Of a stretch of DNA of 34,832 nucleotides, positions 4,313 through 32,000 are shown piece after piece. Source of the DNA: Nitrospira sp. (lineage in GTDB: Bacteria; Nitrospirota; Nitrospiria; Nitrospirales; Nitrospiraceae); assembly GCA_020697375.1 (NCBI GenBank), contig JAJFBJ010000047.1, positions 1-34,832 on the forward strand, in the 5' to 3' direction. Numbering within the stretch: the stretch's first letter is position 1; every line of letters starts with the position of its first letter. The translations under genes were made by a program, and so were the position numbers. The notes beneath the pieces were generated by a model that saw nothing but the letters and a program-made list of their open reading frames with translations, had not been told where the DNA came from and searched no databases.

Positions 4313-4340
4313 CGATCCCTTCTCTCGCGGAGTTGATCCG

Positions 4341-6522: not shown

Positions 6523-6534
6523 CGGCGGGCGGTT

Positions 6535-7531: not shown

Positions 7532-7570
7532 AGGTAGGTCTCATCTCTTCACCCTCCCATTCATATCGTG

Positions 7571-8275: not shown

Positions 8276-8331
8276 GGTGAGAGGCAAGGCAGCGTGGTGA
8301 TCAGTCGGTGCGCAGGGCAGGAGTCGGTCGG

Positions 8332-15020: not shown

Positions 15021-16183
15021 GCATGGCGGTCATCGATCCTGGCGCGACCCTGGGGATGCTTGGCGGGGGGCAGCTCGGTGCGATGTTCGCAACGGTGGCT
15101 CGCCGCATGGGGTACCCAGTGGCGGTGTGGGACCCCGACGCCGAAGCGCCCGCCCATCGCCACGCCGACTATTCACTGATCAGGCCATTCTCCGACGCGG
15201 CGTCCCGTAAAGATTTTGCGCAGCATGTCCGCGCCGTGACGTACGAATGGGAAAATGTGCCGAGCGAATTGTGCCGGCAGTTGGAACTCGATGTGCCGGT
15301 CCGGCCGTCAAGCCGGGTCCTCTCCGTCATTCAGGATCGAATCGAACAAAAAACCTTTCTGCAGGCTCACGGACTGGCCGGGCCGGCATTTCACAGAATA
15401 TCATCGCCGGAAGAACTCGGCGGGCACATCGCGTTCGGATACCCGCGCGTCTGCAAGACCGCGACAGCCGGTTACGACGGGAAAGGCCAATGGAAAATCA
15501 ACGATGTCGAAAATTCTCGAATGGTGCAACAGGAACTTGCCAAGACCATGACGTCAGGTTCGCGCTGGATCTTGGAAGAATTCATTGCCTTTGAGCGCGA
15601 ACTCTCCATCTTGGTCGTGCGAAGCCACGATGGGACGATGCGGACGTACCCGCTGGCCGAAAATATCCATGAGGAAAGCATGCTCCGTCAGACAACGGTG
15701 CCGGCCGATGTTCCCGCGACGGTCGCTGAACAGGCTGCGACGATGGCGAGAAGTGCGGTGCAGGCGTTAGATGGTGTCGGAATGTTTTGCGTGGAGCTGT
15801 TTCTCATGGCCGACGGAGGCGTGCTGATCAATGAAGTGGCGCCAAGGCCGCATAATTCCGGTCACTACTCGCTCGATGCCTGTACGGTGTCGCAGTTCGA
15901 ACAGCAGGTACGCACTCTCTGCGGTTTGCCGCTCGGAGAAGTGCGTCTGCTCAGTCCCGCGGTCATGCTCAATCTGATCGGCGATGAAATCTCGTTCGCC
16001 ACGACCTCGCCCTCGGCGCAAGTGTTATTGCGCGAGCCCGGGGCGGTGCTGCACCTCTATGGGAAACGTGTCATTCGACCGAAGCGGAAAATGGGGCACA
16101 TCACATTCCTGGCTTCCACCAGCGCGGATGCCCTCGCGAAAGCGTCGGCCTTCCGAGCCTGTCTTGCCGCGTCTCGCCTCTGA
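15017..16183 (+). CDS. purK: N5-carboxyaminoimidazole ribonucleotide synthase
   Basis: The 388-residue ATP-grasp enzyme starts with a Rossmann-like preATP domain ([20 protein letters not shown]). It has the carboxylase ATP-grasp segments [33 protein letters not shown] and the metal-binding [20 protein letters not shown] typical of PurK. It makes N5-CAIR from AIR, ATP and bicarbonate, feeding PurE. GTG 15017 overlaps the purE stop (GTGA); ATG 15023, two codons later, is equally possible. Length is normal for the family. Confidence 0.92.
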
Positions 16184-16503
16184 GGAACTGCACTTCTGCC
16201 ATCGCGACGCTCCTATCAGTCGTCCCATCTCGAACATACACGAGTGTGGAATCCCAGGCCTCGGTCAACCAACGCGTAGCGGTTCAGCCACCCGGCCTGC
16301 CGCTCCTCCTGTGTGCCGGCCCGGCCACGCTCATGTGGTGAGTGACTGTTCGTTTTTGTGATATGCAATCGAACGATACGGCCCTTTAGGACCAACCCTT
16401 TGGGGTCAGTGCTCTTGAAATGCGGTGACTTGCCTTTTTCTGAGAGAGGGTATGGGACTTGCTGATAATCCAGCCGGTCTCACATTTCACTGAAGGCAGG
16501 ATT
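16184..16503. other. Intergenic stretch of 320 bases, no gene seen
   Basis: It lies between purK and the hybrid kinase. There is a small hairpin near 16389-16408 (GGACC with GGGTC around a CTTT core) but no T run that would make it a convincing terminator. I see no RNA gene. The kinase is preceded by AAGGCAGG just before ATG 16504. Confidence 0.4.
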
Positions 16504-18366
16504 ATGAGCGTGACATTGTCCTCCGCTGAATTCGACCAAACCTTGCAGCACTCAGCCATGCGAGGCCTGGCTCGTTGTCTCAATCACCCCCGATCGCGAA
16601 CCATGTTTCTGCAGGGGCTTGTCGCAGGCATTCTTTCCTACGAATTGTTGATCGGCAATGAAACGATATTCGGGCCTGCGGTGAGCCGAACGATGACGGC
16701 CAGCCTGATTCTGGTCAGCGGTGGCATCATGCTGTTGCCGCGAAACCTTCTGGAGAGCGTCTGGTTTCCAGGCGCGTTGATCAGCCTCAACACGGTGCTG
16801 GTGACGGGAACGATTTACCTATCCGGGAACGCCAGCTCGGAGTTGTATCTCACCTATTTTCTTCTTGTCCTGATTGCGTCCTCGGCTCCGTCGCTGAGAC
16901 AGCTCCTGGGCCTCTCGCTGGTGGTCTGCACGGGATATGGTGTATTGGTGTACGAACATGCGATGCAGTCGGGCGCCCTTGCCGTGGGGCACGTCCTGGG
17001 CATTCCCATATTGCTGATTATGGCGGTGTTTTATGGAGTGACACTTGAAACGGTCGCCAACGAGCGTCGGCGAAGTCGCTGTTTGCAGGAAGACGTGCAG
17101 GGTTTGAAGCAGTCCGAACAGGCGCTGGAGGAGCGCCGGGCACAGCTGGCCATGCGCGTGCAAGGCTTGAAACAGGGACTCTCCCGGGCGAACCAAGAAA
17201 TCCGTCAAGGCATGGTTGAGCGGACGGGACTGGAGCGGCAGCTTCGGGAAGCCCAGAAGTTCGAGGTGGTGGGTCGCCTGGCTTCCAGGTTGGCGCATGA
17301 ATTCAATTTGGTGACGGCGGTCATTGGAAATAGGACCGGCGTGATTTTGTCAAGGCTGAGGCCGGAAGATCCGTTGCAAGCTCCGGTGCATGACATGTTC
17401 AGGAGCGGGGAACGGGCTGCGGCATTGACGGCACAGCTCCTGGCGCTGAATAGCCATGAACCGACGGTTCGGGACACGCTGTCGCTTGGGCCGGCGATTG
17501 AAACGATGCGAGAAACACTCCAAGGATTGCTTCCCGATGAAATCGGCTTGCATGTGGCAAGCGACTCTCCAACCGCCTTAGTGGAGATCAGTTACGACCG
17601 GCTGGAACAGGTCTTGTTTCATCTGGTCGCCAATGCGCGGGATGCGATGCCGGATGGCGGTCGCATAGATATCTCGCTGCAGGTCATCACAGGCGAGGCT
17701 CTCCCTATTGAACAACTGGAAAAGAATCCACGGAAACGCATGGCACGGATTGCCGTCAGCGACAGTGGCCGTGGAATGACCTTGGACGTTCAATCGCACA
17801 TGTTCGAGCCTTTTTTTTCGACCAGGGAAGACAAGACCGGTCTCGGCCTGACTTGCGTGTATGGAATCACCAGACAAGAGGGAGGCGCGATCGAAATAGA
17901 AAGTCAGCCCGGACAGGGAACGACGGTGCGTCTCTATTTCCCTCTGATGGAGCGAAACGGTGCGTTGCGTGACACGAAGGTCATCCGCGAGTGTCTCTCA
18001 AATGGAGCCGAAACGGTGCTGCTCGTTGAGGAGGACGAAATCTCCAGGAAGCTTGCGCGATCGACGCTTCAGCGCCATCGATATCAGGTGCTGGAGGCGG
18101 GGTCCGGGGTGGAGGCATTGGTGGTGGCCCACCAGTATGGGGCGCCGATCCATCTCATAGTCACCCATCTTTCGATGGCCGAGATCAGCGGACGGGAGTT
18201 GGCCAAGCGCCTGGTGCTTCAACATCCCAAGATGAAGGTATTGTTTCTGTCCGGATTCCCGGAGGAGACGATGACGATTCATCGAATCAATAAAAAATAC
18301 TTCTTGCAGCGGCCCTATCAGCAACAGGCATTGGCCGGGAAGGTCCGAGAGTTGCTGGATACGTAA
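16504..18366 (+). CDS. Membrane hybrid histidine kinase with degenerate receiver domain
   Basis: The 620-residue product has about six transmembrane helices (residues 35-180), a coiled coil (about 185-245) and a HisKA-type helix with LAHEFN (His265). A complete HATPase domain follows (LVANARDAMPDGG, DSGRGM, FEPFFSTRE, GLGLTCVYGI). The C-terminus (about 505-620) is a receiver fold. Its acidic pocket (VEEDE) and LSGF serine are present, but the phospho-accepting aspartate is His555 (VTHLSM, normally TDxxM) and the conserved lysine is Arg603 (LQRPY, normally KP). The kinase core looks active while the receiver should not take phosphate in the usual way. ATG 16504 is preferred over 16459 because AAGGCAGG lies directly upstream. 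No sensor domain beyond the membrane helices is seen. Its response-regulator partner is not in the window. Confidence 0.85.
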   Translation: MSVTLSSAEFDQTLQHSAMRGLARCLNHPRSRTMFLQGLVAGILSYELLIGNETIFGPAVSRTMTASLILVSGGIMLLPRNLLESVWFPGALISLNTVLVTGTIYLSGNASSELYLTYFLLVLIASSAPSLRQLLGLSLVVCTGYGVLVYEHAMQSGALAVGHVLGIPILLIMAVFYGVTLETVANERRRSRCLQEDVQGLKQSEQALEERRAQLAMRVQGLKQGLSRANQEIRQGMVERTGLERQLREAQKFEVVGRLASRLAHEFNLVTAVIGNRTGVILSRLRPEDPLQAPVHDMFRSGERAAALTAQLLALNSHEPTVRDTLSLGPAIETMRETLQGLLPDEIGLHVASDSPTALVEISYDRLEQVLFHLVANARDAMPDGGRIDISLQVITGEALPIEQLEKNPRKRMARIAVSDSGRGMTLDVQSHMFEPFFSTREDKTGLGLTCVYGITRQEGGAIEIESQPGQGTTVRLYFPLMERNGALRDTKVIRECLSNGAETVLLVEEDEISRKLARSTLQRHRYQVLEAGSGVEALVVAHQYGAPIHLIVTHLSMAEISGRELAKRLVLQHPKMKVLFLSGFPEETMTIHRINKKYFLQRPYQQQALAGKVRELLDT

Positions 18367-18378
18367 TGGAGTCGGATG

Positions 18379-19083
18379 TTAATACCGCCATGAAGTGGGG
18401 CGCGCAGGCGTAAAAAATCGTACCTCCGGTCGTTTGAAGAAACCGATCAGCACCATCCCAGCGATGAATCCACCGATGTGAGCGAAGAATGCCACCCCGC
18501 CTCCTTGGGATCCCGGGCTCAATCCTCCGCTCAGAAGCTGCATCACGAACCAGAATCCCAACACGATGCCGGCCGGCACATAGGTCATGCCGACGACCGG
18601 TGCGAGCAGCAGCACTCGGGCATGCGGAAAGAGCAGGAGGTAGGCGCCCAGAATTCCGGAAATGGCGCCGCTGGCTCCGACCATCGGGATAGTAGACGTC
18701 GGTTCGGTCAGGGCATGGCTGAGTGCCGCCAAGGTACCGCAGGCTACATAAAATACGATGAACCTTGCATGGCCCATGACATCTTCGATGTTATTACCGA
18801 AGATCCATAGGTACAGCATGTTGCCGATGAGGTGCATCCAACTGCCATGCAGGAACATGCTTGTCACTACGGTCGAGTAAGCGGGAATGGCCATCATCTC
18901 GGGAGGGAGTGCGGCATGGCCGAACACGACAGCGGGAATTGCGCCGAACTGATAGACAAAGATCTCCCCCGGGCCCGGGAGAAGAGAGCTTTGATAGAAA
19001 AAGATGAGGCAGCAGACGACGATGAACGCGATGGTTACGACCGGTGTGATTTCCGTCGGGTTATCGTCGTTAAGCGGCATCAT
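18379..19083 (-). CDS. Rhomboid family intramembrane serine protease
   Basis: The 234-residue product has six to seven membrane segments. The rhomboid motifs are present: FLHGSWMHLIGNMLYLWIFG (77-96), the nucleophile in VGASGAISG (Ser138) and the catalytic histidine in FAHIGGFIAG (His202). These enzymes cut membrane proteins inside the bilayer. The opening MPLNDDNPT resembles the MIPLRDDNPT start of this bacterial subgroup, so the true start may be the second ATG (19080). No clear ribosome binding site is visible. It converges with the hybrid kinase gene, whose stop is 12 bases away. Substrate unknown. Confidence 0.88.
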   Translation of the reverse strand: MMPLNDDNPTEITPVVTIAFIVVCCLIFFYQSSLLPGPGEIFVYQFGAIPAVVFGHAALPPEMMAIPAYSTVVTSMFLHGSWMHLIGNMLYLWIFGNNIEDVMGHARFIVFYVACGTLAALSHALTEPTSTIPMVGASGAISGILGAYLLLFPHARVLLLAPVVGMTYVPAGIVLGFWFVMQLLSGGLSPGSQGGGVAFFAHIGGFIAGMVLIGFFKRPEVRFFTPARPTSWRY

Positions 19084-19106
19084 ACGTACACCAGGAATTG
19101 AGTCGT

Positions 19107-19961
19107 TTAGAGGGCCGGCCGAGGGAGCCGGGGGTTGGGAAGAAGGGAGCCGTCTTTCTGCAATGGCACCGAGAATCCGGCCGCGTGGGTATGGCCTCCT
19201 CCGCCGAATGAGGCGGCGATAGAGCCCACGTCGGTTCCCTCCTCGCGGGACCTGAGGCTGTAATATCGTTTGCCGTCGCGGTCGTGCCAGATGAGACAGA
19301 ATGGAAAACGCATCGACAACCGTTCGCCGATTTGGCTGGTGAGCACTGTGCTCTGAACAACTGGGATGGTTGCTCCCTCGAAATGCATCATCACAGCCTG
19401 TGCCGCGAGTTTCGTGACGAGTTCATTCTCATAGCGGAGAATGGCCCGGCCGTCCCGTTCTAGTTCCTGCTGCTCGAAACGGTTCCATAGTTGAAAGTCG
19501 AACGGATGCGACGCGAGCGCGGCGCTGATTTCCCGGCTGTTCGGAAGCGCCCAAGTCCACAAATCCTTGTCCTGCACATAGCGAAGCAGCCAGGGCGCCG
19601 GTTCATCATGAGCCCATTCCCACCCGAGCACGGCGCCTGATTTATTCAGATCGAAATAGGCATAGGGAAGGTCGGCCAACGCCTTTTCGGCCGTGACGTG
19701 ATGATCCAGGACGACGAGGCTGCCTGCGTCCTTGGCCATGGCTTCGAGGATCGGCCGGGTGTAACTGAAATCCACGATGACAATGTGTTGTCCGGTCAGG
19801 TTTGGGGGAGGCGGGTCCCCATGTTTCACGGCGACATACCGTGCGTCGGGATAACGTCTCCACAAGGCCCAGGCGGCGGCGAAACCGTCGGTACATTCCG
19901 CGTGATAGAGGATCACCGTGGGGGGAGAAGGGGAAAGTCGTCGCATGGCGGCTGCCGTCAT
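19107..19961 (-). CDS. DHH-family phosphoesterase
   Basis: The 284-residue product has the DHH metal-binding motifs: ILYHAECTDGFAAAWAL (motif I, normally HxDxDG), a VDFSYTR aspartate, LVVLDHHVTA (the DHH signature) and a C-terminal DHHA1-type GGGGHTHAAGF. Family members hydrolyse phosphoester bonds in short oligonucleotides, cyclic dinucleotides or polyphosphate. The substrate here cannot be told. The first motif has HAECTDG rather than the common HxxPDxDA, closer to the uncharacterised DHH proteins than to NrnA or RecJ. The gene sits 23 bases upstream of the rhomboid gene on the same strand. Confidence 0.82.
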   Translation of the reverse strand: MTAAAMRRLSPSPPTVILYHAECTDGFAAAWALWRRYPDARYVAVKHGDPPPPNLTGQHIVIVDFSYTRPILEAMAKDAGSLVVLDHHVTAEKALADLPYAYFDLNKSGAVLGWEWAHDEPAPWLLRYVQDKDLWTWALPNSREISAALASHPFDFQLWNRFEQQELERDGRAILRYENELVTKLAAQAVMMHFEGATIPVVQSTVLTSQIGERLSMRFPFCLIWHDRDGKRYYSLRSREEGTDVGSIAASFGGGGHTHAAGFSVPLQKDGSLLPNPRLPRPAL

Positions 19962-20051
19962 GCGGCCAGCCTAGCATGTCCGTTCATGCAGACTAAAGTG
20001 CTATCTCAGGAAGAGACGGTGGCCCATGACGACGGCGCCATAGAGATCAAA

Positions 20052-21107
20052 TCACGCCGTCTCAGGAAGACGGTTGAGGTGATTGATGAGTTGCCTGAGA
20101 CGGCCGGCACTCCGGCGGTGGAAGGAGAAGGTCAAACGCATGAGATCTTTCAGTCCCGGCTCATCGATTTCCTCAGGTAGGGACGGTCGTTGCTCGAATG
20201 TGCCGTCCGTCAGCAGATCGTTGAATTGGTCCTGCACTTCATGAAGTTGCGTCTCGGTCAGGGGGGTCTTCAGCCTGATGGCCAGTTGGCGTCCCACGAA
20301 TCGGAGTGAATGGTACCGTCGGTAAAACAAACGAATTTCTGTGACGGCATCCTCAACATTGTCCACGATGGTAAAGAGGGAGAGATCCTCGGCGTTGATC
20401 AGACGGCGTTTCAACAATTGATCGGTGATAAACGAGTTCCAGTGATTCCAGTAGTCACATCCGGGTGCTTGCAGACAAACGATCGGTTTCGGATCACTCT
20501 TGCCGGTTTGCACGAGGGTCAAAATTTCAAACCCTTCATCGTGGGTACCGAACCCGCCGGGGAATAAAGCAATGGCATGCGACTCCTTCTGAAACATCAG
20601 TTTGCGTGTGAAGAAGTATTTGAAGGTGACGAGCTTGGGGTCATCGGCAATGACGGCATTGGCGCCCTGCTCGAAGGGCAGCATGATATTGACGCCGAAA
20701 CTGTGCTCGCGTCCGGCCCCTTCCTGCGAAGCCCGCATGATGCCATCCGCTCCGCCGGTAATGGTCATATAGCCCTCTTCGACCATTCTTCGGGCAAACT
20801 GAAAGGCAAGCTGGTAATTGGGATCGTCGGCGAGAGTGCGGGCCGACCCGAAAACACTGATTTTCAAGCGGTGCCGATAGCCTTGGAACACTTGGAAAGC
20901 ATGCCGTAGTTCTTTCAACGCGCGATTGACGATTTTCAGATCCAACACGTCCAGCTGTGAATCCGACAGCCGGATGACACCGGTGAGGATTTCTTTCATG
21001 AGCGCCGCCTGGATATCATCGTCCGGACGGTCGAGCAGGGTGCTCAATTGTGTGAGAATCTCATTTTTCGTCGGGGTCGGTCTTGAACGGGATGCAGGGC
21101 TTTTCAT
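20052..21107 (-). CDS. LOG-family-like Rossmann nucleotide-binding protein with extended ends
   Basis: The 351-residue product contains the Rossmann core of the LOG/lysine decarboxylase-like family: ISVFGSARTLADD, YMTITGGADGIMRASQEGAG and the signature FPGGFGTHDEGFE (usual PGGxGTxxE). The core spans about residues 80-260. LOG enzymes release free bases from nucleoside monophosphates, as in cytokinin activation, but most bacterial members have no proven role. Here an N-terminal helical region of about 80 residues and a C-terminal part of about 90 residues surround the core, so it is larger than the usual 180-220 residues. It is a lone minus-strand gene between DHH and CBS-PilZ genes. Confidence 0.8.
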   Translation of the reverse strand: MKSPASRSRPTPTKNEILTQLSTLLDRPDDDIQAALMKEILTGVIRLSDSQLDVLDLKIVNRALKELRHAFQVFQGYRHRLKISVFGSARTLADDPNYQLAFQFARRMVEEGYMTITGGADGIMRASQEGAGREHSFGVNIMLPFEQGANAVIADDPKLVTFKYFFTRKLMFQKESHAIALFPGGFGTHDEGFEILTLVQTGKSDPKPIVCLQAPGCDYWNHWNSFITDQLLKRRLINAEDLSLFTIVDNVEDAVTEIRLFYRRYHSLRFVGRQLAIRLKTPLTETQLHEVQDQFNDLLTDGTFEQRPSLPEEIDEPGLKDLMRLTFSFHRRSAGRLRQLINHLNRLPETA

Positions 21108-21208
21108 CAGTTGTCACCCCCAAACACGGTAAACGGCGGACGCCTATCGCAGGAGAAGGAAATCATAACAACCCCTGCCCGGCGAAGCAAAGATTCATCG
21201 GAAGAAGG

Positions 21209-21985
21209 TTAGGAAGGTTCGGACGTACGGGGCAAATTTTGAAGGACCCAGGCGCGTATTTTCGATTCATCGGAAGGAGGCATGGGAGCGAATTGGATAT
21301 CGACTCCGGGATTGGGTCCCATTATCCCATCCTCTCCCGGAAAGTCCTGTTCATAACTGCTATTGAGAATGGTGCCGCGCAGGGAGAAGCTCAAATCGGG
21401 TCCGGGAAGAAGAAATGAAAGGACTACCGCCGTGCCGGGAAGCAGCAATGTCCGGCTTTCGATGAAGGCCCCCACATGGCTGAGTTGCCGGATTGTGGCG
21501 ATATGTTTCGCCGCTTCACCTTCGCCATCCGCAACTCGTACGGTGGCGGGGAGGCAGGTCTCGCATCGCCGGGGAGCCAGCGCAAGATCCCTGGCCGTGA
21601 GAATACCCACCGGTTGGTTTTGTTTCGTCACGATCAGGAGCGAAGCCCCGGTGGCGGCCATCACACTCGTGGCATCTTCAAGCATCTGATCGTATTCGAT
21701 GGAATATACCGGTTTCGACATGATGGTCCGAACTTCCACGTCGTGCGGTTCCAATCCCTGTGCCACGACCTTCTTCACGATGTCGCCGGACGTCATGATC
21801 CCGAAGGTGGTCTCGCTGTCTTTCACCAGTAGACAGGGCATATGCTCACGGTCGAGAAGCAACGCGGCTTCGCTCACGGAGACATCCCCGGGAACCTGTA
21901 CCACGCCCGGTGTCATCATGTGCGCCACCAACGAGGTTGAAGAATTGGATGATCTGTCGCGGAGCATGTAGCCGGCCTTTGTCAT
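21209..21985 (-). CDS. CBS-pair protein with C-terminal PilZ-like domain
   Basis: The 258-residue product has two CBS motifs in its first half: HMMTPGVVQVPGDVSVSEAA to GIMTSGDIVKKVV (about 22-75), and TIMSKPVYSIEYDQMLEDA to GILTARDLAL (about 87-135). These usually bind adenosine nucleotides. The second half (about 145-250) looks like a PilZ beta barrel, with LSHVGAFIES and GVDIQFAPM. The PilZ RxxxR motif is not evident and the (D/N)xSxxG motif reads QLSHVG, so c-di-GMP binding is doubtful. A start at 21967 (MLRDRSS) is possible. The layout suggests a nucleotide-responsive regulator. Confidence 0.7.
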   Translation of the reverse strand: MTKAGYMLRDRSSNSSTSLVAHMMTPGVVQVPGDVSVSEAALLLDREHMPCLLVKDSETTFGIMTSGDIVKKVVAQGLEPHDVEVRTIMSKPVYSIEYDQMLEDATSVMAATGASLLIVTKQNQPVGILTARDLALAPRRCETCLPATVRVADGEGEAAKHIATIRQLSHVGAFIESRTLLLPGTAVVLSFLLPGPDLSFSLRGTILNSSYEQDFPGEDGIMGPNPGVDIQFAPMPPSDESKIRAWVLQNLPRTSEPS

Positions 21986-22132
21986 CGCTTGAGCCTGTTT
22001 CTCGCCGCGAGAGGGGCTGACGTCCGGGCTCGGCGACCATCACGTCGAAAGGAAGTATAGCAGATGGTTTGTTGGATCGGCGGTTCCATCTTCCCTTGTC
22101 AAGCAAGAGGTTAGGCGATTAGACTGCACCAC

Positions 22133-23650
22133 ATGCATGTCTCTACGATCGTTTCAAAATATGCTAAACGAGACCTGATGGAAAGGGAATTCACACAACG
22201 CGCGGGCCGTATTTCCCCGCATGGCCTCGGTCTGTCGGTGGATGTCTATTCTCCGGATTTGCTCCACCTCCTTCAATCGCTCCGTGAAGCGGAATTGAGA
22301 GCCGGGTACTTAGAGATCTTCAAAGCGACGACCTCAGCCATGCGGTATGTTCGGCGGCAACTGCCGGACATCAAGCTAACCTACCATGGAGAAGGCTTAT
22401 GGGTGACACAGCCGGATTTTTTGCGGAGCTGCTCGGGGCTGCAAGGCCTGGCGGAAGCCTGTGCGCAGACAGCCGCACTCGGAAGCGCTTGGCTGAATCA
22501 TGAATGTGCGACCAAACAGATGGCGGGCTATGCATTCGGTACGTACCTGCCGCCATTGTATACGGAGTTGTCGGCAAGAGTGACCGCCGAAAATCTCATC
22601 TTCCTTCAGGGACAGTTGGACGAGCTGGTTCGATGTCACATGGACATTCCCCCGCTGGTCTTGCTGGAAATGCCGCCGTTGACCTATTTCGCCTGCGGAT
22701 CTCTCGGGATTCCCGAGTTTTTCCGCATGGTGACCGATCGGGCGCCCTGTGGCTTGGTGTTGGATATCGGCCACTTGTGGACGGTGTATCGCTATACGGG
22801 AGTATGGCGTCGCCAGGCGTTGGAGTCGTTCGTCGGGCAGTTTTTAGATGATTTTCCAATGCAGCGGGTGGTGGAGATTCATGTGGCCGGGCTTGCAGCA
22901 CAGGGTGAAACAAGGGGGGACGCCAAGCCCGGTACATTGCCGTACTGGATCGATGCGCATGAGGCTCCTATTCCGGACGTCTTATTCGATCTATTGGCGC
23001 AGGTATTGGCTCATCCCCGCCTGACGGGTCTGAAAGGCGTGGCGCTCGAAGTCGACACCAAGCCGGTCGCAGCCATCGTCACCGAATTTCGCCGGTTCCG
23101 TGAACGCTTCGAATCGACAGTTCGTTGCGCGGAACAGGCGGTTCATATCGATCTACCGCCATGCAAGCAGTCGGAGGCCCGGAAATATTGTCATCCGGTA
23201 GGCTCGCCCACACCGGAAGAGCAGGCGACATTGCATCGGCAGTACGAAGGGTATGTCGAACTCGTGACGGCTTCGGATCGCGCATCCACGGCGCATGAAC
23301 TTTCCTTGTTGGGGGGATCGCTGGATGATCTGGACCGATATCGCGAGACCTACCTTCCTCATGAGTTGCTCCATTGGGGTGGTGAGTTGAACGATATGTT
23401 TCCGAAAACAAGCGATTTGTTAGGGGCGGCCGGTATCCCTCTAGAGCGATTCGTCTCCTTCTGGTTCGAAATGCCGAGACCCGAACAGGACGAGTATGAC
23501 TTTTTCCTGTTGAAGATCGATCGATTCATCGAATTTGTGGAACGTGACTGTCCCTCCGCCTGTACGACCGTAACGGAAGAGGCGGAGGAATTGCGGGCGG
23601 CCTATCATGCGGCGAATGAGCCTATCCTATGGGTCAAGGTGTCCGCATGA
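22133..23650 (+). CDS. MNIO (DUF692) family protein with fused C-terminal domain
   Basis: The 505-residue product has an N-terminal TIM-barrel part (about 30-320) matching DUF692, now called multinuclear non-haem iron oxidases (MbnB, TglH). Likely iron ligands appear in family order: YHGEGLW (His85), LLEMPPLTYF (Glu179), GLVLDIGHLW (Asp211, His214), VVEIHVAGL (Glu249, His250), YWIDAHEAPIPD (Asp274, His276) and VALEVDTKP (Glu306). MNIO enzymes modify cysteine or other residues of ribosomal peptides, usually with a separate DUF2063-type partner. Here residues 325-505 add a domain with RYRETYLPHELL, FPKTSDLLGAAGIPLERFV and FFLLKIDRFIEFVE. This resembles DUF2063 (YRNN..., FP.t..LLG), so partner and enzyme may be fused. 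ATG 22133 is the longest start; ATG 22178 is possible. No precursor peptide gene is visible nearby. It overlaps the dus gene by four bases (ATGA). Confidence 0.72.
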   Translation: MHVSTIVSKYAKRDLMEREFTQRAGRISPHGLGLSVDVYSPDLLHLLQSLREAELRAGYLEIFKATTSAMRYVRRQLPDIKLTYHGEGLWVTQPDFLRSCSGLQGLAEACAQTAALGSAWLNHECATKQMAGYAFGTYLPPLYTELSARVTAENLIFLQGQLDELVRCHMDIPPLVLLEMPPLTYFACGSLGIPEFFRMVTDRAPCGLVLDIGHLWTVYRYTGVWRRQALESFVGQFLDDFPMQRVVEIHVAGLAAQGETRGDAKPGTLPYWIDAHEAPIPDVLFDLLAQVLAHPRLTGLKGVALEVDTKPVAAIVTEFRRFRERFESTVRCAEQAVHIDLPPCKQSEARKYCHPVGSPTPEEQATLHRQYEGYVELVTASDRASTAHELSLLGGSLDDLDRYRETYLPHELLHWGGELNDMFPKTSDLLGAAGIPLERFVSFWFEMPRPEQDEYDFFLLKIDRFIEFVERDCPSACTTVTEEAEELRAAYHAANEPILWVKVSA

Positions 23651-24831
23651 ATTTTTGGTCTAAGCTTCCGCAGCCCATCCTGGGTTTGGCCCCTATGGAT
23701 GGCGTCACTGACGCCACCTTCCGGCGCGTGGTGGCTGCTCAGGGGCGACCCGATGTCATGTTTACCGAATTCACCAACGTCAGCGACCTCTGTCGCGGGC
23801 CTGAACATCTGCTGTCCTCACTCATCTACAGCGAGTGCGAACGGCCGATTGTGGCGCAGCTTTACGGCAAGGATCCCGACCTGTTTTATCGTGCGGCGCA
23901 TGTGGTCTGTGAGCTCGGCTTCGACGGACTCGACGTCAACATGGGCTGTCCTTCGAAAAACGTGGCCTCGTCGGGATCGGGAGCGGCGTTGATCAAGACT
24001 CCCGACTTGGCCCACGCCATTTTGCAGGCTACCAAGCAAGGGCTGAATGATTGGGCTGGCGGCCAGTCGATCGATAGCCTGGGGTTTAAGCCATCCCGCG
24101 TCGAGCTCATTCGAGCCATGAATTTGCTCCGGGCCGGCGTGCCGGCTGTTCCGCGTCGTCTCCTTCCATTGTCGGTCAAAACGCGGCTGGGGTTTGATTG
24201 CAGCGTCGTCGAAGGGTGGGTGGAGCATCTGCTGGGGACCGGCCCGGCGGCAATCACGTTGCATGGGCGGACGCTCCAGCAGATGTATCGAGGAGCAGCC
24301 GATTGGTCGGCCATAGCCGCAGCAGTAAAAGTCGCACAGGGTTCGGAGACGCTGATTCTCGGGAACGGAGACCTTCACACGTTGGTAGACGCGGCCAGGC
24401 GCATTGCCGAGAGCCGGGTGCAGGGTGTCCTGGTCGGGCGGGGGACGTTGGGAGCGCCCTGGTTTTTTCGCGCAAAAGAACAGGCCCGACAGGCGATGCG
24501 CGAGCAAGCTGACCTCCACGACGTGCCGGTAACCGCATGGGAGACTCAGATCTCGGTGGACCAGCGGATGCGCGTGATGCTGGACCACGCGAAGCAATAT
24601 GAATCCATCGCGGGACTTGAGCGGTTCCGTTCGATCCGCAAGCATCTGGGCTGGTACTGCAAAGGATTTCCGCATGCCGCGGCGATGCGTTTACAGATGT
24701 TTCAGGTCTGTAACGTGCCGGATGTTGAACGCGTGGTCGCAGATTTTTGTCGCCATCTCATGGGAGCAGATCCCGTCGCCATTGACTCGGCAGCCTTCGA
24801 ATCCCAGCCTTCCCAGCCCTGTGTCTTCTGA
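23647..24831 (+). CDS. tRNA-dihydrouridine synthase
   Basis: The 394-residue flavoenzyme has the Dus signatures LGLAPMDGVTDATFRRVV (FMN site, 12-29), IVAQLYGKDPDLF and DGLDVNMGCPSKNVASSGSG with catalytic Cys101. ITLHGRTLQQMYRGAADWSA and LILGNGDLHTLVDA follow. It reduces uridines of tRNA to dihydrouridine. The product is about 60 residues longer than DusA/B/C, with an insertion after the catalytic loop (LNDWAGGQSIDSLGFKPSRV). Which D-loop position it serves is not clear. ATG 23647 overlaps the MNIO stop, so the two are probably coupled; Maf follows after four bases. Confidence 0.88.
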   Translation: MNFWSKLPQPILGLAPMDGVTDATFRRVVAAQGRPDVMFTEFTNVSDLCRGPEHLLSSLIYSECERPIVAQLYGKDPDLFYRAAHVVCELGFDGLDVNMGCPSKNVASSGSGAALIKTPDLAHAILQATKQGLNDWAGGQSIDSLGFKPSRVELIRAMNLLRAGVPAVPRRLLPLSVKTRLGFDCSVVEGWVEHLLGTGPAAITLHGRTLQQMYRGAADWSAIAAAVKVAQGSETLILGNGDLHTLVDAARRIAESRVQGVLVGRGTLGAPWFFRAKEQARQAMREQADLHDVPVTAWETQISVDQRMRVMLDHAKQYESIAGLERFRSIRKHLGWYCKGFPHAAAMRLQMFQVCNVPDVERVVADFCRHLMGADPVAIDSAAFESQPSQPCVF

Positions 24832-24835
24832 CTCC

Positions 24836-25468
24836 ATGCGACTCGTCCTTGCCTCCACCTCCCCAAGGCGATCTGAGTTATTGGCCCTTCTTGGAATGCC
24901 CTTCGAAGTCATGGCCCCGCAGTTTGTCGAACAGTTGGTGCCGCATCTTCCCGCCGGACAACAGGCGGCCAAGTTTGCTGCGGGTAAGGCCGGGTCTTGT
25001 GCGATCAACGTTTCCGATGCCTTGGTGATCGGTAGTGACACGTTGATCAGTCTTGGCTCGGAAGTGTTGGGCAAGCCACTGGATCTAATAGATGCCGAAG
25101 CCATGCTTAGACGAATGGCCGGAGAGACGCATACGATCTATACGGCGGTCGCTCTCATGAGCCAGGATCGTGGCCTTTGCGACGTGCAGGTTGCCGCCGT
25201 GCATGTCACGATGAAACCCTTCGACGAAGAGAGCCTCTCTGCCTATCTACGTACAGGAGAGAGTTTGGGTAAGGCCGGATCCTATTCAATACAGGGCGCC
25301 GGTGCCGGATTGATCGAGCGCATCGCAGGCGATTATACCGCAGCCGTGGGTCTTCCCCTTCGCATGGTCGCCGGCATGCTGCAGCGGCGTGAAATGACAT
25401 GCCCGGTGGATCTCGACCGACTGTATGCCCTCAGGCCCTACCCGAACTGGATCCGCTTCGGTTCCTAG
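24836..25468 (+). CDS. maf: Maf-family nucleoside triphosphate pyrophosphatase
   Basis: The 210-residue product has the Maf motifs: LASTSPRRSELLALLG at the start, the SDTLI acidic site (usually ADT), LGKPLDLIDAEAMLRRMAG, and the closing block KAGSYSIQGAGAGLIERIAG plus DYTAAVGLPL. These enzymes remove pyrophosphate from dTTP/UTP or modified nucleotides and keep them out of nucleic acid. ATG 24836 starts exactly at the conserved block, four bases after the dus stop. The C-terminus has about 20 residues after the usual end (CPVDLDRLYALRPYPNW). Confidence 0.88.
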   Translation: MRLVLASTSPRRSELLALLGMPFEVMAPQFVEQLVPHLPAGQQAAKFAAGKAGSCAINVSDALVIGSDTLISLGSEVLGKPLDLIDAEAMLRRMAGETHTIYTAVALMSQDRGLCDVQVAAVHVTMKPFDEESLSAYLRTGESLGKAGSYSIQGAGAGLIERIAGDYTAAVGLPLRMVAGMLQRREMTCPVDLDRLYALRPYPNWIRFGS

Positions 25469-25866
25469 GGAGTAGCAGAACATCAGAAAGACCATCGGGA
25501 GAAGGAATGGTCCGCCATCATTGAGAAGTATGGAATGTCGTCGACGAGCTCTTGAGAAGGATCAACCGGGAACTGAAAGGACGTCGTGACAAAGGCGCAA
25601 TCTTCCCCGAGGCATAGAGTCAACCGGCAATGCGACCGTTCAAAGGTCTTATTTGACGGACCATCCAGCCATGTCGTCACAGTTGAACAGCTGGATGATC
25701 GGAGCAACGAGGAGATCCGGCGGCGGACTACTCCTCTTCATCGCAAAGTTTAGCCAGGTAAAATTTGGTCGGCTTCTGCTCATCAGGAATCAACGGCTTC
25801 TTCAGAAGAATGGAGGGAGAAGATCGTCGGTTTGCCAGGGGGCTCCCTTCCCCGAGTGAAGCCAAT
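25469..25866. other. Intergenic stretch of 398 bases, possibly a degenerate repeat at its left end
   Basis: Right after the maf stop, GTAGCAGAACATCAGAAAGA (from about 25472) loosely resembles the CTAGCAGGCTGTTCAGAAAG repeat type and may be a decayed copy. A minus-strand frame of 74 codons (25483-25707) has no ribosome binding site and no recognisable family. I see no other feature. Confidence 0.3.
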
Positions 25867-26277
25867 CTATGAGGCGGGCTTCGCAGCGGCGCCTGGGAAC
25901 CATTCAGTATGTTCGTCGCCCTGCCGTCCCAAGTACGTAACCCGTTGTCCGCGCAAAAACGCAAAGTAACTCTGCACACCGGCGTTCATGGCGCGTCGGG
26001 AGAACTCGCGGTAGGGTTGACTGTTCTGCTGGCTATCCCTGATCGCCTCTCGCAACGCCGGAGCATCGAAGTTCAGTGCAACGGATGGCAGGTCTTCATA
26101 TGTGATCGGGCAGACAACCACGTCCCCTTCCGTCCCATAGTAAGTGGTGCGCAACGAGACATAATCTACATGGTAATACTCGACCCCTGCTTGGAGAAGG
26201 TTGCTTACGATCTGCGGAAACGCCAGAGTATTCGACAGACTGGCTCGCGAGGCTTTGAGCACGAGATGACCGTTCAT
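25867..26277 (-). CDS. DUF1398-like family protein
   Basis: The 136-residue product resembles the DUF1398 (phage envelope-like) family: FPQIVSNLLQAGVEYYHVDY, a TTYY segment, LNFDAPALREAIRDSQQNSQ, and the closing block YFAFLRGQRVTYLGRQGDEH followed by TEWFPG. The family is small, soluble and without a known activity. ATG 26277 is preceded by AAGGA at seven bases. It stands alone in a gene-poor stretch, with no partner on either side. Confidence 0.7.
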   Translation of the reverse strand: MNGHLVLKASRASLSNTLAFPQIVSNLLQAGVEYYHVDYVSLRTTYYGTEGDVVVCPITYEDLPSVALNFDAPALREAIRDSQQNSQPYREFSRRAMNAGVQSYFAFLRGQRVTYLGRQGDEHTEWFPGAAAKPAS

Positions 26278-26807
26278 GATGATTTCCTTCGATACATTCT
26301 GATCGATGTGTCAGCGAGCCTGAGTGACCGCCATACCTCTTCCACTTGCCTGCCTCAGACGCTTCGATGTGTCGTTGAAGCGCCCGACTTCTCGTGACTT
26401 CTCGGTTGCGAGGAAGATATGAAGGAGACTGGTTGCTTTCCCACTGGTCATCGTCACGTTTCCAGCCGTCCGCAACGGCCTCTTTCTTCAGGGTATCGTC
26501 TACCATTGTCGGACGACGGCGGTCTAAGCGCCCATTGAGCAGTATCGTAAGCGTCTCCTTTATACGTGTTTGCACTTGAACATGGCAACAGCTTCCGCCG
26601 AGGTCAGGAGCTGTGAGCGTACCATGGCTTAAGCACGGCTCGAAGTCTTAAGTCTCTCCCACCCCCGCATCCGATAGGCACAGCTTCACGGACCGGGTCG
26701 CGTAGAACAAGCTCAGGCTTCATATCCTGTGACTCCCATCTTGCGGTAGCATTCTCCATCCATTTACAATGCGCCCCATTATTCAGTGACGCGTCAGGGA
26801 GGAACTC
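26278..26807. other. Intergenic stretch of 530 bases, no gene seen
   Basis: Several short frames exist on both strands but none has good start signals or family likeness. A 10-base tandem (GACTTCTCGT/GACTTCTCGG near 26389) is present and trivial. The right end holds the probable promoter of the secreted protein gene. Confidence 0.35.
26741..26770 (+). promoter_or_regulatory. Possible promoter of the secreted hypothetical gene
   Basis: TTGCGG (26741-26746) and TACAAT (26765-26770) are 18 bases apart. They lie 37 bases before ATG 26808, which has GGGAGGA upstream. The -10 is good and the -35 moderate. Confidence 0.35.
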
Positions 26808-27482
26808 ATGCGCGCTTATGATTACTTTGCAGGCAGGCGTCGGTGGTCTCCGGGGCTTGCCGGGCTGCTGGTGGGGTCATTGGTGTGGGGGATCAGCGGG
26901 CTGGCATTGGCGATTGATATCAAATTATCTCCGGAAGAAGCCAAGATAGCCCTGGAGGCTGGACGCACGCCGATGGAAAAGGCCAACTCGCCGGAGGACG
27001 TCAAGAAGGTCTTGCAGCAGGCGTCGCTGGTGACCAGGATCGGGTCGGATCCGGAGAAGGATCCATGCGGCCCGAGCGCGATCTTGCGCACTAAGCGCTA
27101 TCGGCTCGAAGCGTTCGGCCGGCAGGAAGCGGCGGAATCGAAGAAGCAAAAAAAAGAAATCCGCATGCCCGACGAATTCATCCAGAAGGTCGTGGAGATG
27201 CCGAACATGGAAATTGAAGTGCAGCTCTGCGGCGACGATGAATACTTTGCGGAGAAGGCCGACATCGTATTTCAGCAAAAGGGAAAGAACATCCGGCCGG
27301 TGGATGTCAGTCCTGCTGATCGGGGCAGGAAAAACGACGGGCAAGGCCCGGCCTACCGGTCGCGCTTCACGGCTCGCTTCGGATACGATACCTTCGATCC
27401 AAATGGAAAGACGACCGTGATCGTGACATTGCAGGATGGACAACTTTTGCAGTTCGACGCCGATTTCTCCAAGGTGAAATAA
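26808..27482 (+). CDS. Secreted hypothetical protein
   Basis: The 224-residue product starts with a basic N-terminus (FAGRRRW) and a hydrophobic core ending LALA near residue 35, a Sec-type signal. The mature part is very charged (KKQKKEIRMPDEFIQKVVE) with two cysteines (Cys87 in DPCGPS, Cys141 in LCGDDEYF) that could pair. The C-terminal part (YRSRFTARFGYDTFDPNGKT, then TVIVTLQDGQLLQFDADF) looks like a beta-rich domain. GGGAGGA precedes ATG 26808. I do not recognise a family. It is likely periplasmic and transcribed alone. Confidence 0.65.
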   Translation: MRAYDYFAGRRRWSPGLAGLLVGSLVWGISGLALAIDIKLSPEEAKIALEAGRTPMEKANSPEDVKKVLQQASLVTRIGSDPEKDPCGPSAILRTKRYRLEAFGRQEAAESKKQKKEIRMPDEFIQKVVEMPNMEIEVQLCGDDEYFAEKADIVFQQKGKNIRPVDVSPADRGRKNDGQGPAYRSRFTARFGYDTFDPNGKTTVIVTLQDGQLLQFDADFSKVK

Positions 27483-27592
27483 CATCATGACTCAGGTGCG
27501 GGCATAGGGCCTGTGCCTGAAGCGGGCTTCTCATGGCATTCTCCGTCCTCGGCGCCTGCACCCTTCCCCTCTCGATCCAGCAGTTCGGCTCG

Positions 27593-27711
27593 CTACCGGT
27601 ACGCAAGTCGGAGATCTTCACTGCCTGGGGAACCCAAGTCCTGCCGATAAAACGTCAGCGCTCGCTCCAAATCGCAACAGCGAGAGCCATGGCAGTGATG
27701 CATGGTCTCAT
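27593..27711 (-). pseudogene. Frameshifted fragment of a VOC (glyoxalase-like) gene
   Basis: On the minus strand ATG 27711 opens MRPCITAMALAVA. A one-base shift then leads into LERALTFYRQDLG in another frame. Restoring a single G in the GTTGCGATTTGG stretch gives ...ALAVADLERALTFYRQDLG, the standard beginning of vicinal-oxygen-chelate proteins (glyoxalase/bleomycin-resistance fold). After LG the frame soon meets TAG (27593-27595), and no further VOC sequence is found downstream. I read this as the leftover 5' end of a lost gene. Confidence 0.5.
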
Positions 27712-27756
27712 GGGATCGGGCGGCTTATAACGGAAGCACCGCGCGCTGCGTTGCTG

Positions 27757-28491
27757 TTAAGGAATGTGCAGGGCGATTGGAAATGTGGCGGCATAGCCAT
27801 CGGTCGATTCTTTCGCAGCCAGCATGAGTTGCTCTCCGCCACGCCGGAAGATCCGATCATGTTGGTTTCGCACATTGCGTTCGCCTTTCGCGGCATACGG
27901 TTGGTCACGGTAAACGCGATCCGTCAGTCTATCGTCAAAATACATTTGTGAGGTAAACTCCAAACTCCGCTCTGGTATGGGGGGCGTGCGAATCTTGAGG
28001 TGAATGTGCACGGTCCTGCCGGGATACCAACCGGGATAGATGGTCACGAACCTGGCCTCGCCGCGCGCGTCGGTGATCTGGTAGCCGCGCAAAAATTTCT
28101 GACCGATGCTGTTGAAGCCGGCATCCTGCACATCGGAGTAGACACCGAGCGCATCGCAGTGCCAAATGTCCACTTGGGCGCCGGTCAGTGGGTGACAGTC
28201 TCCGGAGCTAAGTTGGAATACCTGTAATGTTAAAGCGAGTGGCGTGCCCGGCTTCATTTTTCCATCGTTCGGATCCGAGCGAACGTCGGATCGATTCAAC
28301 CGTTCGTCGACGAAATATGGACCTTGGGTTTGTTCCGGCCTGACCACACAGGAAAGGCCATGCGTGCTTGCAACGGCCCGCCTGAGAAATAGACCGCCGC
28401 CCATCAGCCAGAGTGCACCCGTGGCGCCGAGCAATGTGACCAATTGGCGTCGGGAGAGAAGCTGCCCCACAGGTGAGTCTTCATGCGTCAT
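27757..28491 (-). CDS. Tat-exported intradiol ring-cleavage dioxygenase-like protein
   Basis: The 244-residue product has a twin-arginine signal (LSRRQLVTLLGATGALW, 12-28). It then shows the intradiol dioxygenase core: QTQGPYFVDE (55-63), GAQVDIWHCDALGVYSD with Tyr118, and IYPGWYPGRTVHIHLKI with Tyr156, His162 and His164. These two Tyr and two His are the Fe(III) ligands of protocatechuate and catechol 1,2-type dioxygenases. Classical enzymes are cytoplasmic; exported relatives in many bacteria have unknown substrates. No catechol pathway genes are near. It ends only 45 bases from the VOC fragment. Confidence 0.82.
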   Translation of the reverse strand: MTHEDSPVGQLLSRRQLVTLLGATGALWLMGGGLFLRRAVASTHGLSCVVRPEQTQGPYFVDERLNRSDVRSDPNDGKMKPGTPLALTLQVFQLSSGDCHPLTGAQVDIWHCDALGVYSDVQDAGFNSIGQKFLRGYQITDARGEARFVTIYPGWYPGRTVHIHLKIRTPPIPERSLEFTSQMYFDDRLTDRVYRDQPYAAKGERNVRNQHDRIFRRGGEQLMLAAKESTDGYAATFPIALHIP

Positions 28492-28575
28492 ATTGTTCGT
28501 TTTCGTTCGAGCATGATGAACTGCAGACTACTTTTTCGAAGAAGCCTCGGCGGCAGAACGAAATTCCTCGCAGTG

Positions 28576-28683
28576 CTATTGCACTTCGACGTTGATGGTC
28601 TGAGTGGCGACGAGGAGGGCGTGATCCTTTGTCGAGCCGGTCACGGTGACCTTGTGTGTGCCTTGGTCAGATCCTGCGCCGCG
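28576..28683 (-). pseudogene. Ig-like domain gene tail in frame after the PII-like stop
   Basis: Directly after the TGA of the PII-like gene the same frame stays open for 35 codons to TAG 28576. It reads SDQGTHKVTVTGSTKDHALL and then VATQTINVEVQ. This is the classic last two strands of a bacterial Ig-like/cadherin-like domain (GTYxVTVTG...TxTVTVxV). It probably is the remnant of a secreted protein gene whose front was lost next to the PII-like gene. A true read-through tail is less likely. Confidence 0.35.
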
Positions 28684-29013
28684 TCATTCGGCAACGAAAT
28701 GTTCCCGGCGGCTGACCGCCACGTCTGTGACGAACATGGCTCCGGAATGTTTGTTGAAGAGCGGTCCGAGCCCGGAGAGGATCGGATCGACCTTGTCATT
28801 CGGCACGACCGTGAACACGATCACCTGGCTGCTCGTGTCATTGAACAGCAGATGACCTTCGTGAAATCCATGGTGCCCTTTGCCGGACACACTGTTGATG
28901 ATCGTATAGCCGGTCGCGCCGACCCGATTGAGCAGGTCAGTGACGTGCGTCACATGTTCCCCCTGAACTACGATCTTGATCTCCTTCATCGAATGCAATG
29001 TCAAACTGATCAT
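28684..29013 (-). CDS. PII-like signalling protein associated with DabAB
   Basis: The product has PII-fold features: KEIKIVVQGEHVTHVTDLLN, a small T-loop-like stretch SVSGKGHHGFHEGHLLF, and QVIVFTVVPNDKVDPILSGL plus a closing VTDVAVSRREHF strand. The T-loop lacks the uridylylated Tyr motif of GlnB/GlnK, so it is a PII-like protein such as those found beside carbon transporters (SbtB, CPII). I start at ATG 29013 because GAGGAGGG lies seven bases before it; ATG 28989 (MKEIKI) is the homology start. It overlaps the dabA 3' end by over 50 bases, so coupling is strong. It may bind an adenine nucleotide or bicarbonate and gate the transporter; this is inferred. Confidence 0.75.
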   Translation of the reverse strand: MISLTLHSMKEIKIVVQGEHVTHVTDLLNRVGATGYTIINSVSGKGHHGFHEGHLLFNDTSSQVIVFTVVPNDKVDPILSGLGPLFNKHSGAMFVTDVAVSRREHFVAE

Positions 29014-32000
29014 CCTCCGTCCCTCCTCGTATCCATCCGGCCATACTGTCATACAGATCGAATGTGTGGTCCTCCGGATTCAGGGCCGCCACGGTAATCC
29101 ATCGCTGGGTGACTAGCTGTTCAAGATGGGGATGCTGGTCGATGATCGACTGGATGCGCGCCCGCGGCGCCTCGATCACAGCCAGCAGCCGCATCGGCTC
29201 ATGATAAGGACGGGTTCCCTTCAGCACCGTTTGGGCAGGCAGGCCGATGCGCAAATCGCTCGTGCCGCCGGTCATGACGCCGATCCGGCCGACCACATTG
29301 TGATAGGCCTTGCTGCCGCTTCCGTAGATCTCGTTATCGACGGTCGAGAAGTAATGTTCCATGTTGATCCACTGAGCGACCACGAGCGGCGCGGTCATGA
29401 TGGCTTCCAGCAATTTCCCGGACGCATCCTGCCGGTAATCGTAGGAGTGAAGAAACGCGCGGCCCTGGAGATCGACCGACTGGGTCAAGGCGCGTCGCCC
29501 GATGACCATGAGGCTGTTCCGTGACAGCCCCCATTCCGGACGGACTTCCGCCCAGTGCTCGCTGCGCCTCCCGGCGAGTTGCCGTGCCGCATGAGTCTGT
29601 GAAGTTTCCTGATTCGCCTCCAACCTGATCCCTCGTTCGTGGGCCGACTGCGCTCCGGCCTCTTCCAGATCTGCCATCAGCCGCTGGAGGTCTTTGCGGT
29701 GCGTGGGGGGGGCATCTTCGAGGTCGACCACTCGGACCTGATCGCTCGTGGTATCGTGCTGGGCGGCGCAGAAATGAGTGTCGCTGGGAATTTTGATGCC
29801 TCGGCCCAGCAGGATCTCGCGAACAGTCAGGTTGTTTCCCATCGTTGCAATGGTCCTCGCATTGGGCAGCCCGTGATTTCCGCCGCAGGCGCCGCAATCG
29901 AGCGCCGACTCGTACGGGTTGTTTTGAGAGGTGCTGCCATGCGCGCAGAACAGGACGACGCGCGCGAAATTCGAGGTGAGTCCCATCAGCCGGAGGGCCG
30001 CCTCCACAAAATAGGCTTGCTCGGTGATCGAGAACCCGGTCCGTGTGAGACGATTCAGACGCTCTGAAATGCCGCGCAGACTGATCCGATAGCGCTCACG
30101 CAACTCCCGATAGAAGGCCTCCTCTCTCTCAGGATCAAGCCCCAACGCTCGCCCGACTTCACCGGCTGCTCCATCCGCATGGCCGATCGCATTTTTTCGG
30201 ATCTGATCCAGGAGCGCCGGTGAGAGGGCTGTCCCCCGGAGTCCAAATCGTTCACGAAGAATTTCGCGAATGTGCGCATGCTGCTCGGTGGTAATCATGT
30301 CATCCGCCGCTTGGCGCGAAATCTTTTCGACCGTCAAGGTGGTGGCCACCGAGGGCAGGAGCAGTTGCTTAACCCATCGGATGCTGTTGTGGTACCAGCG
30401 CGGGAACAACGTTTTGCCGAACAAAGGCAGGCTAAAAAACCAACCGAGCGCCTCCACCATGACATAGGGAGTCACCACATTTTCCTTGAGGTCATGCAGC
30501 AGTAAATGCCCGGCCGCTCCCAGGCGCGCCGCTGTCTTATGCCGTTCGGCCAGGGTTCCGTGATAGCTTCGGGGCACTTCTCGAATCTGATTCTTGGGTT
30601 TCAGGAGCACGGGGCATTGGGAGACCGTGCTCTGCATGCTGAAGGCTTGGTATTCCAAGGGGACGCCAAAAAATCCGGCCAGGCCCAATGTCTCATACCC
30701 GCCGCGATGTTCGAGGTGGCGGCGAAAGACTTCCGACCGCACGTCGATGCAGAATATAACCTGGGCAAGGGGCCTCGACAGGCCGTCTCCCTGGGGCAGC
30801 GGGAGATCGCCAAGCCGGGCGGAGGCGGCTCCCAGGTCTCGCAACTGCTGTCGCCGGTGATGGGCCTCAAAAGCCTCCAGCCAGCGCGGCCCCTGCTGCG
30901 AAGGAGGAAACCCGGCGAGCCAGTCGAGGACCGTGAGGATGTCCGACGGAGAGGTCGATTCGATTGCGGCCGGCGTAATCGACAGCGCGCTTGTCAGCCG
31001 CGCGAGCGCCCGCGCCGACTGCCGGTGAACCTGTTGTTCGTCCTCTTCGGCCTGGAGTTCGAACTGTGCGCGGCCCAATTCCTCCCAGGCCGACGGTTCG
31101 AATTGTCGATTGGAACGTGCAAGTTGCTGCGCCAGACCAGAGCCTGCGGGAGAGAGTCGTCCGGCAACCCATTCACGTCGCAGCCAGTATGCGTAGGGCT
31201 GCCCGTCCATGAATCTGCGGATCTCATCGTAGGTTCCAGCGATCCCGAGTCGATTTCGGCAACTATGCTCCACGAGCTCCCGCTCATAAAACAGACGCAC
31301 CGCCAGGTATTTCACGAGATCGATGGGAAATTGTTGCTGCCAGGCATAATTATTTTGAGTCGAGCGCCATTTGATGAAGCCGGTCCAACCAGGCAAGGCG
31401 GCCATGTGAAGGGAGAGGTACTCTTCCCATACCGGTTTGGGTATGGCGAGCTCGCCCAAACTATCCAAGACGGCGTCTTCCGTCCGGTCCGGTAGCGCGC
31501 GAATGCGTTGCCGAGCCTGTTTCAGACCGAGGCATCGGAATATGCCGTCATATTGGGCCAATGATTTCCAAGCGCGAAAGAACGTCTGATCCCGGCGCGG
31601 CATGGCCCACCCGGCCTCTCCTTCATCCAGAAAGGCGCTGCACCACTTGACCAACTCCTGGTTGATGGTTTGGACAATCGTCGTGCCCAGGGTCTGATCG
31701 CACCAGGCGCTGAGCGTCTCTCGGCTCGGTACGGCAATGGAATCACATTGAGGAGCTGAAGCGCCGGCGGGTCGTCCGTGCATGACCATCGCGAGACGCC
31801 GGGCGATGGTGTCGATGAGTTCCGGATCCCCCGCCGCCTCGTCCTCCGTTCCCTGTCCGGAAAGGAACGGCTCGGTGATCCCATGCCTCATGGATGCGGT
31901 CAGGACATCGAGGTGGGTCGTACGGCGATCTCCCAACATGACTTCTTTGTCGGCCGCGAGCGGGGAGAGTACCGTGCGCAGGTCACTGCTGCGGATGCGT

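Follow-up and report, generated by a model that had tools for sequence, protein, structure and literature searches.

A natural single-chain fusion of a multinuclear non-haem iron oxidase with a C-terminal helical, partner-like domain in Nitrospira and related bacteria

In a stretch of DNA from Nitrospira sp. (GenBank assembly GCA_020697375.1, contig JAJFBJ010000047.1, positions 1–34,832 of the forward strand; these 34,832 nucleotides are termed the window), one gene encodes a multinuclear non-haem iron oxidase (MNIO; DUF692) which continues, in the same chain, into a helical domain. The fusion and the MNIO nature of the product are firm. The best explanation, held with somewhat better than even confidence, is that of a self-contained MNIO holoenzyme, in which the C-terminal tail would serve as partner and an exported protein would be the target. 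The gene is composed as follows:

22133–23650, forward strand: fusion gene, ATG start, 505 amino acids (aa), no internal stops
22211–23137, forward strand: MNIO (DUF692, PF05114) TIM barrel, residues 27–335
23138–23212, forward strand: variable linker, about residues 336–360, with low predicted local distance difference test (pLDDT) values at about 340–360
23213–23617, forward strand: C-terminal helical, partner-like domain, residues 361–495

The preliminary description of this DNA, made from the sequence by eye, had assigned the first part of the protein to the MNIOs, and this assignment is borne out. PF05114 (MbnB_TglH_ChrH) was the sole Pfam family found on the protein (residues 64–320, 52 bits, the cut-off being 25, E 8e-14), and an AlphaFold2 model from 64 aligned sequences (pLDDT 87.4, predicted TM-score 0.89) showed a DUF692-type TIM barrel, then the linker of low confidence, then the helical tail. 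A profile of 64 relatives matched the entry 3bww of the PDB at E 1.3e-4; phmmer with the fusion sequence found no MNIO there. Among the NCBIfam MNIO models, ApyH scored best (44.4 bits), followed by BufB (37.2), the HvfB family (23.5) and ChrH (11.4), none of them at its own cut-off, which is 400 for ApyH and 600 for ChrH.

A genome scan gave 140 relatives, of which the best 80 were kept (referred to as the 80 loci, or Nitrospira-type); their titles named Nitrospira, Nitrospirae/Nitrospirota, Nitrospiraceae and two uncultured Nitrosospira isolates, NOB2 and CMX. The gene was a single open reading frame (ORF) in all 80, so the fusion, which had been suggested before, is no gene-calling accident. 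Of 1222 matches in a protein search, the best 120 were 473–537 aa long, and the organisms named among them were Nitrospira, Nitrospiraceae or Nitrospirota. When an alignment of the fusion was used to search 395 genomes from the phylum to which the Nitrospira defluvii genome belongs, matches were found in 142; by our reading these comprised 118 at E < 1e-90, a divergent group of 21 (best E 5e-35 to 4e-78, one of them, G079, split over two contigs) and three fragments or weak matches. One in-frame stop each was present within the matches of G183, G145 and G271, and some copies may be decaying or mis-sequenced. A protein search with one divergent member returned 45 matches, some named Leptospirillia bacterium or "Leptospirales bacterium"; the label "Leptospirillia-type" for this group rests on these names. 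In the 14 Leptospirillia-type loci which were fetched the fusion was again one ORF (14/14; 437–604 aa by longest frame), with little of the linker alignable to that of the Nitrospira-type clade. In a tree of the barrels, all fusion rows together with L133, a split case treated below, stood on one side of a branch supported by 100/100, long branches being flagged. Viral contigs contained no relative; plasmids searched with the protein P0001 gave MNIO barrels only, none spanning 80% of the query. In five of six Nitrospira genomes the fusion was the only PF05114 match, and PF09836 (DUF2063), the family of the PME-type 1 partners, had no match; the sixth possessed a canonical pair in addition. The fusion is seemingly a core gene of Nitrospira. 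In the open-access literature searched, no paper was found on DUF692 in Nitrospira, or on MNIOs in Leptospirillum or Nitrospirota.

The ligands of TglH are His71, His107, Glu151, Asp184, Asn187, His216, Asp229, His231 and Glu258 (PMC10880893). Equivalent residues of the fusion were assigned by alignment; counts out of 81 refer to the window plus the 80 loci, counts out of 64 to the protein set:

22385–22387, forward strand: His85, first metal-ligand position, TglH His71; 81/81 and 64/64
22499–22504, forward strand: His123-Glu124, with Glu124 on TglH His107, the canonical second His, in a gapless hhalign alignment; Glu124 81/81, His123 80/81 and 61/64
22667–22669, forward strand: Glu179, bridging-Glu position, TglH Glu151; 81/81, the register differing by one residue between alignments
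22763–22774, forward strand: Asp211 and His214, TglH Asp184 and Asn187, DxxH against DxxN of most MNIOs; both 81/81
22880–22882, forward strand: His250, TglH His216; 81/81
22952–22960, forward strand: Asp274 and His276, TglH Asp229 and His231; both 81/81
23048–23050, forward strand: Glu306, TglH Glu258; 81/81

The ordered His, Glu and Asp ligands claimed earlier thus stand at seven of nine positions by alignment, whereas at two the fusion departs from TglH, with Glu124 instead of His and His214 instead of Asn. For a wider comparison, 13 canonical MNIOs were used (11 with a separate neighbour gene, one ApyH member, L134, and one from L172), to which the barrel aligned with hhalign at E 4e-23. 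In this alignment W-L-N-H-E-C-A lies on W-x-x-E-H-L-A, and because there is no gap, Glu124 falls on the canonical His. Its place in the site is a prediction from sequence; if the real strand were shifted by one residue, His123 would be the ligand. The exceptions to His123 in the protein set are L, I and V (P0088, P0106 and P0119). DxxH was present also in L134, and Asn in 12/12 of the other canonical MNIOs. In HvfB, replacement of the site-3 residues N175, D242 or H244 is reported to abolish activity (PMC13419390). With the His-to-Glu and Asn-to-His changes, nature itself provides a way to tell which iron site performs the chemistry.

The tail had been thought, by eye, to resemble DUF2063 over about residues 325–505. 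This likeness did not hold at the profile level: none of 23 tail sequences matched PF09836 at E ≤ 10, while all 12 DUF2063-type partners taken as a yardstick exceeded the cut-off. What remains of the earlier proposal is a helical tail for which a partner role is likely. A possible remote similarity between the tail and MNIO partners, looked for with a PME-type 2 fold like that of the TglI N-terminal helical domain in mind, was suggested by profiles (E 0.0056), with 0/300, 4/300 and 39/300 in the shuffled controls. A reversed template scored 17.1, against 21.6 for the real one, and because of this control our confidence in the partner role was lowered slightly, to the level just given. An hhalign comparison of the tail with DUF2063 using four sequences, and a search of the PDB with the tail profile, yielded nothing; Foldseek gave no match below E 0.001. 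The MNIO partners MbnC and NGO1945 did not appear in a second structural look at the tail, which does not exclude them. Single sequences, namely the protein in ApyI position and the L172 partner, had no significant match to the tail (hhalign probability 0.7 and 2.8%), nor did two actinobacterial neighbours compared directly (score 9.8). Among the best 120 of 193 matches in a search with the tail only, no Pfam domain and no independent lineage were recognised, and the names which included an organism were all Nitrospira or Nitrospirales. The model contains no domain of the RiPP recognition element (RRE) type (RiPP, ribosomally synthesized and post-translationally modified peptide) after the helical domain, since the tail is all-helical and strand-free and the chain ends about 10 residues past the last helix. 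In favour of a partner-like tail is L133, the only split case recognised in the list of the 395-genome search, with an enzyme ORF of 314 aa and a tail ORF of 156 aa, in the order enzyme then partner and overlapping by 31 bases; these may be a natural pair or the product of a frameshift.

In the holoenzyme explanation, a DUF692 barrel with a near-canonical ligand set leads into a helical domain of the same polypeptide, as seen in sequence and model. The tail would replace the separate partner which most MNIOs need; it may help the iron cluster to reach the active mixed-valent state and may shape the substrate cleft. As an RRE-type part is missing, recognition of the substrate would probably depend on a motif within the target itself, as reported for DybH, rather than on RRE binding of a leader peptide. 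The target would be an exported protein of full size that undergoes modification at Cys prior to secretion.

Known systems offer partial precedents. In TglH/TglI (3-thiaglutamate, carbon excision from a peptidyl-Cys) enzyme and partner are separate, unlike in the fusion; TglI has an RRE domain and the system uses the peptide scaffold TglA (PMC10880893). HvfB-HvfC and BufB-BufC, with PME-type 1 partners (DUF2063 plus RRE), share the barrel family and the order enzyme then partner; the present fusion, however, is a natural one, without a DUF2063 profile match or an RRE-type part. For HvfB-HvfC the partner is described as required for the mixed-valent state, and a fusion engineered in the same order is active and was preferred by the authors for its homogeneity and enhanced activity (PMC13419390). 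A natural single chain of enzyme plus partner would show which part of an MNIO partner matters when an RRE is lacking, and, as one stable polypeptide, would be suited to structural and spectroscopic studies.

The best substrate candidate came from the Leptospirillia-type loci. In 12/14 of them the gene that directly follows, in the same orientation, encoded a lipoprotein-like protein, its ATG overlapping the stop codon of the fusion (offset -10 to 0); in the two exceptions, L120 and L122, it was located elsewhere in the genome (L164, L162), with the Cys motifs kept. A simple lipobox pattern fitted 6/11 listed ORFs, the Cys there being invariant. Lipobox-position Cys, Cys-Pro and F-x-x-Cys were invariant in 11/11 aligned proteins, including three from genomes where the gene stands apart from the fusion, and a CarboxypepD_reg domain was present in 4/8. 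A profile of the protein matched at E < 1e-35 in 19 of 390 genomes, all among the 21 with a Leptospirillia-type fusion; 16 of the 19 matches adjoin the fusion by coordinates. Of the remaining two genomes, G087 had a weak adjoining match (E 8e-4) and G091 none, and the best match in any other genome was at E 7e-6. These counts combine searches of 395 genomes (fusion) and 390 (lipoprotein-like protein), all 21 being assumed to be in both draws. That this adjacent protein, with its three Cys motifs, is the Leptospirillia-type target appears plausible, at about even chances. If so, MNIOs would shift further from peptide natural products to routine protein modification, in organisms concerned with nitrite oxidation (Nitrospira) and, if the naming of the Leptospirillia holds, with iron oxidation in acid waters. 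The broader view, a one-chain holoenzyme clade of the Nitrospirota with a rebuilt iron site, which matures full-size exported proteins, represented in the Leptospirillia-type branch by the lipoprotein-like family with its coupled translation, as a housekeeping modification and not as a RiPP pathway, is put forward tentatively and seems at present rather unlikely as a whole.

A lipoprotein-like neighbour would be expected as well if the protein were an MNIO like ChrH and DybH, its tail homologous to the ChrH bundle, and if, without a partner, it modified lipoproteins or large proteins at a C-terminal Cys motif. The architecture agrees with this alternative: ChrH-like MNIOs possess an extra C-terminal helical bundle, which in Cyanobacteriota is a separate polypeptide, and their substrates include lipoproteins and proteins of >30 kDa (PMC12636315). 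A helical bundle is present also in the modelled tail, as the putative counterpart of that of ChrH. Partner dependence evidently varies, since DybH acts partner-free (PMC12636315) while ChrH requires ChrI (PMC10214503). The earlier statement that enzyme and partner are separate in known systems is correct for TglH/TglI, but a fused helical bundle as such was already known from ChrH-type MNIOs. Against a ChrH-like enzyme stand the very low NCBIfam ChrH score, which ApyH, BufB and HvfB all surpass, and the lack of CPxCGxG in the lipoprotein-like protein, where Cys-Pro is followed by V or I and a non-Cys residue. A DNA pattern of the CPxCGxG type matched 17 times in 8 genomes, against 7 for a reversed-pattern control; only one of the 17 was followed by a stop, in a frame of 32 codons without signal-like start, which is implausible. 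This alternative is considered doubtful.

The coupling of the fusion gene to genes for a tRNA-dihydrouridine synthase (Dus) and Maf, noted before, was found to recur. Its downstream neighbours are:

23647–24831, forward strand: Dus, Pfam Dus 190.7 bits; longest frame from 23629
24836–25468, forward strand: Maf-like protein, Pfam Maf 167.7 bits
26808–27482, forward strand: 224-aa protein, its N-terminus signal-like by eye; Cys87 and Cys141 both invariant (75/75)

In the window an in-frame ATG of dus shares the sequence ATGA (23647–23650) with the stop of the fusion. Among the 80 loci dus was present in 80, maf in 79 and the two-Cys gene in 74; genes for CBS-PilZ (69), LOG-like (72), rhomboid (73) and DHHA1 (73) proteins were likewise frequent, some of the misses being due to contig ends. 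By the rule applied, dus began at most 250 bases from the fusion stop in 79/80 loci (overlapping it as ATGA in 50, 1–60 bases away in 27 and farther away in two); in L071 the fusion frame continues into dus. In another alternative, the tail would be a domain of a different kind, regulatory or substrate-binding, and the barrel would have a substrate connected with the dus-maf operon, either a small molecule or a protein of core metabolism; this is judged less likely still than a ChrH-like enzyme. In the 14 Leptospirillia-type loci (8.6–18 kb) no neighbour from the window was found near the fusion, dus and maf being absent. The association of dus and maf with the fusion may owe more to a stable order of genes than to a common pathway. 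In the window, maf and the two-Cys gene stand about 1.3 kb apart (25469–26807), with a DUF1398 gene (25867–26277, reverse strand) in between which was matched in 0/80 loci; in 73 of the 74 loci having both genes the gap is 31–294 bases (918 in the other), and this stretch is an insertion special to this genome.

No precursor gene had been seen beside the enzyme, and none emerged. Positions 16000–29200 of the window contained 85 ORFs of 25–200 aa with at least two Cys; the screen covered ORFs present in the window, and the 13 lying mostly outside genes were looked at, the 72 mostly inside genes and any ORFs restricted to relatives being left out. Ten of the 13 matched 0/80 loci and the other three 1, 8 and 10, so none was kept in more than 10/80, and no conserved precursor beside the MNIO, as in a RiPP gene cluster, was found among them; a candidate adjoining the enzyme exists only in the Leptospirillia-type loci. 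In 20 Nitrospira genomes no convincing homologue of the lipoprotein-like protein was detected (four matches, best E 0.036), and among CarboxypepD_reg matches in six Nitrospira genomes and G025, no lipoprotein with CP...F-x-x-C was recognised in the eight short regions read by eye (ORFs of at least 100 aa). The Nitrospira target, which was not found, would be encoded elsewhere.

The two-Cys protein downstream of maf was considered as the Nitrospira substrate and mostly rejected: it is kept in most loci with both Cys invariant, but neighbouring genes are about equally conserved, and it occurs without the fusion (by comparison of two tables, 19 of its 135 genomes, among 390 of the phylum, had no fusion match) and in 0/21 Leptospirillia-type genomes, which makes this role very improbable. 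It had no Pfam match and represents an uncharacterised conserved family.

Canonical MNIOs also occur in the phylum. In a wider search 132/390 genomes matched, 30 of them with a strong canonical MNIO (E < 1e-50), and by cross-comparison with the fusion search 27 of these 30 have the fusion too. A genome of the phylum that has the fusion also carries L134, where positions 2259–8731 include a member of ApyH (440.7 bits, above the NCBIfam cut-off); the ORFs beside it, by eye a P450, a partner, a radical-SAM protein and a methyltransferase, suggest an aminopyruvatide-like cluster. ApyH/ApyI (aminopyruvatide) resembles the fusion in providing its best barrel model and, through L134, in DxxH; the score of the fusion is nevertheless far under the ApyH cut-off, and L134, in contrast, retains the canonical EH motif and belongs to a cluster of several genes, where the partner position is taken by a separate ORF downstream. 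In five canonical MNIO loci from Nitrospirota (L138, L140, L142, L143 and L145) a four-Cys protein of about 110 aa with a signal-like start is encoded upstream and resembles a bufferin precursor; the partner is of the DUF2063 family in the first four, and the L142 enzyme exceeds the BufB cut-off.
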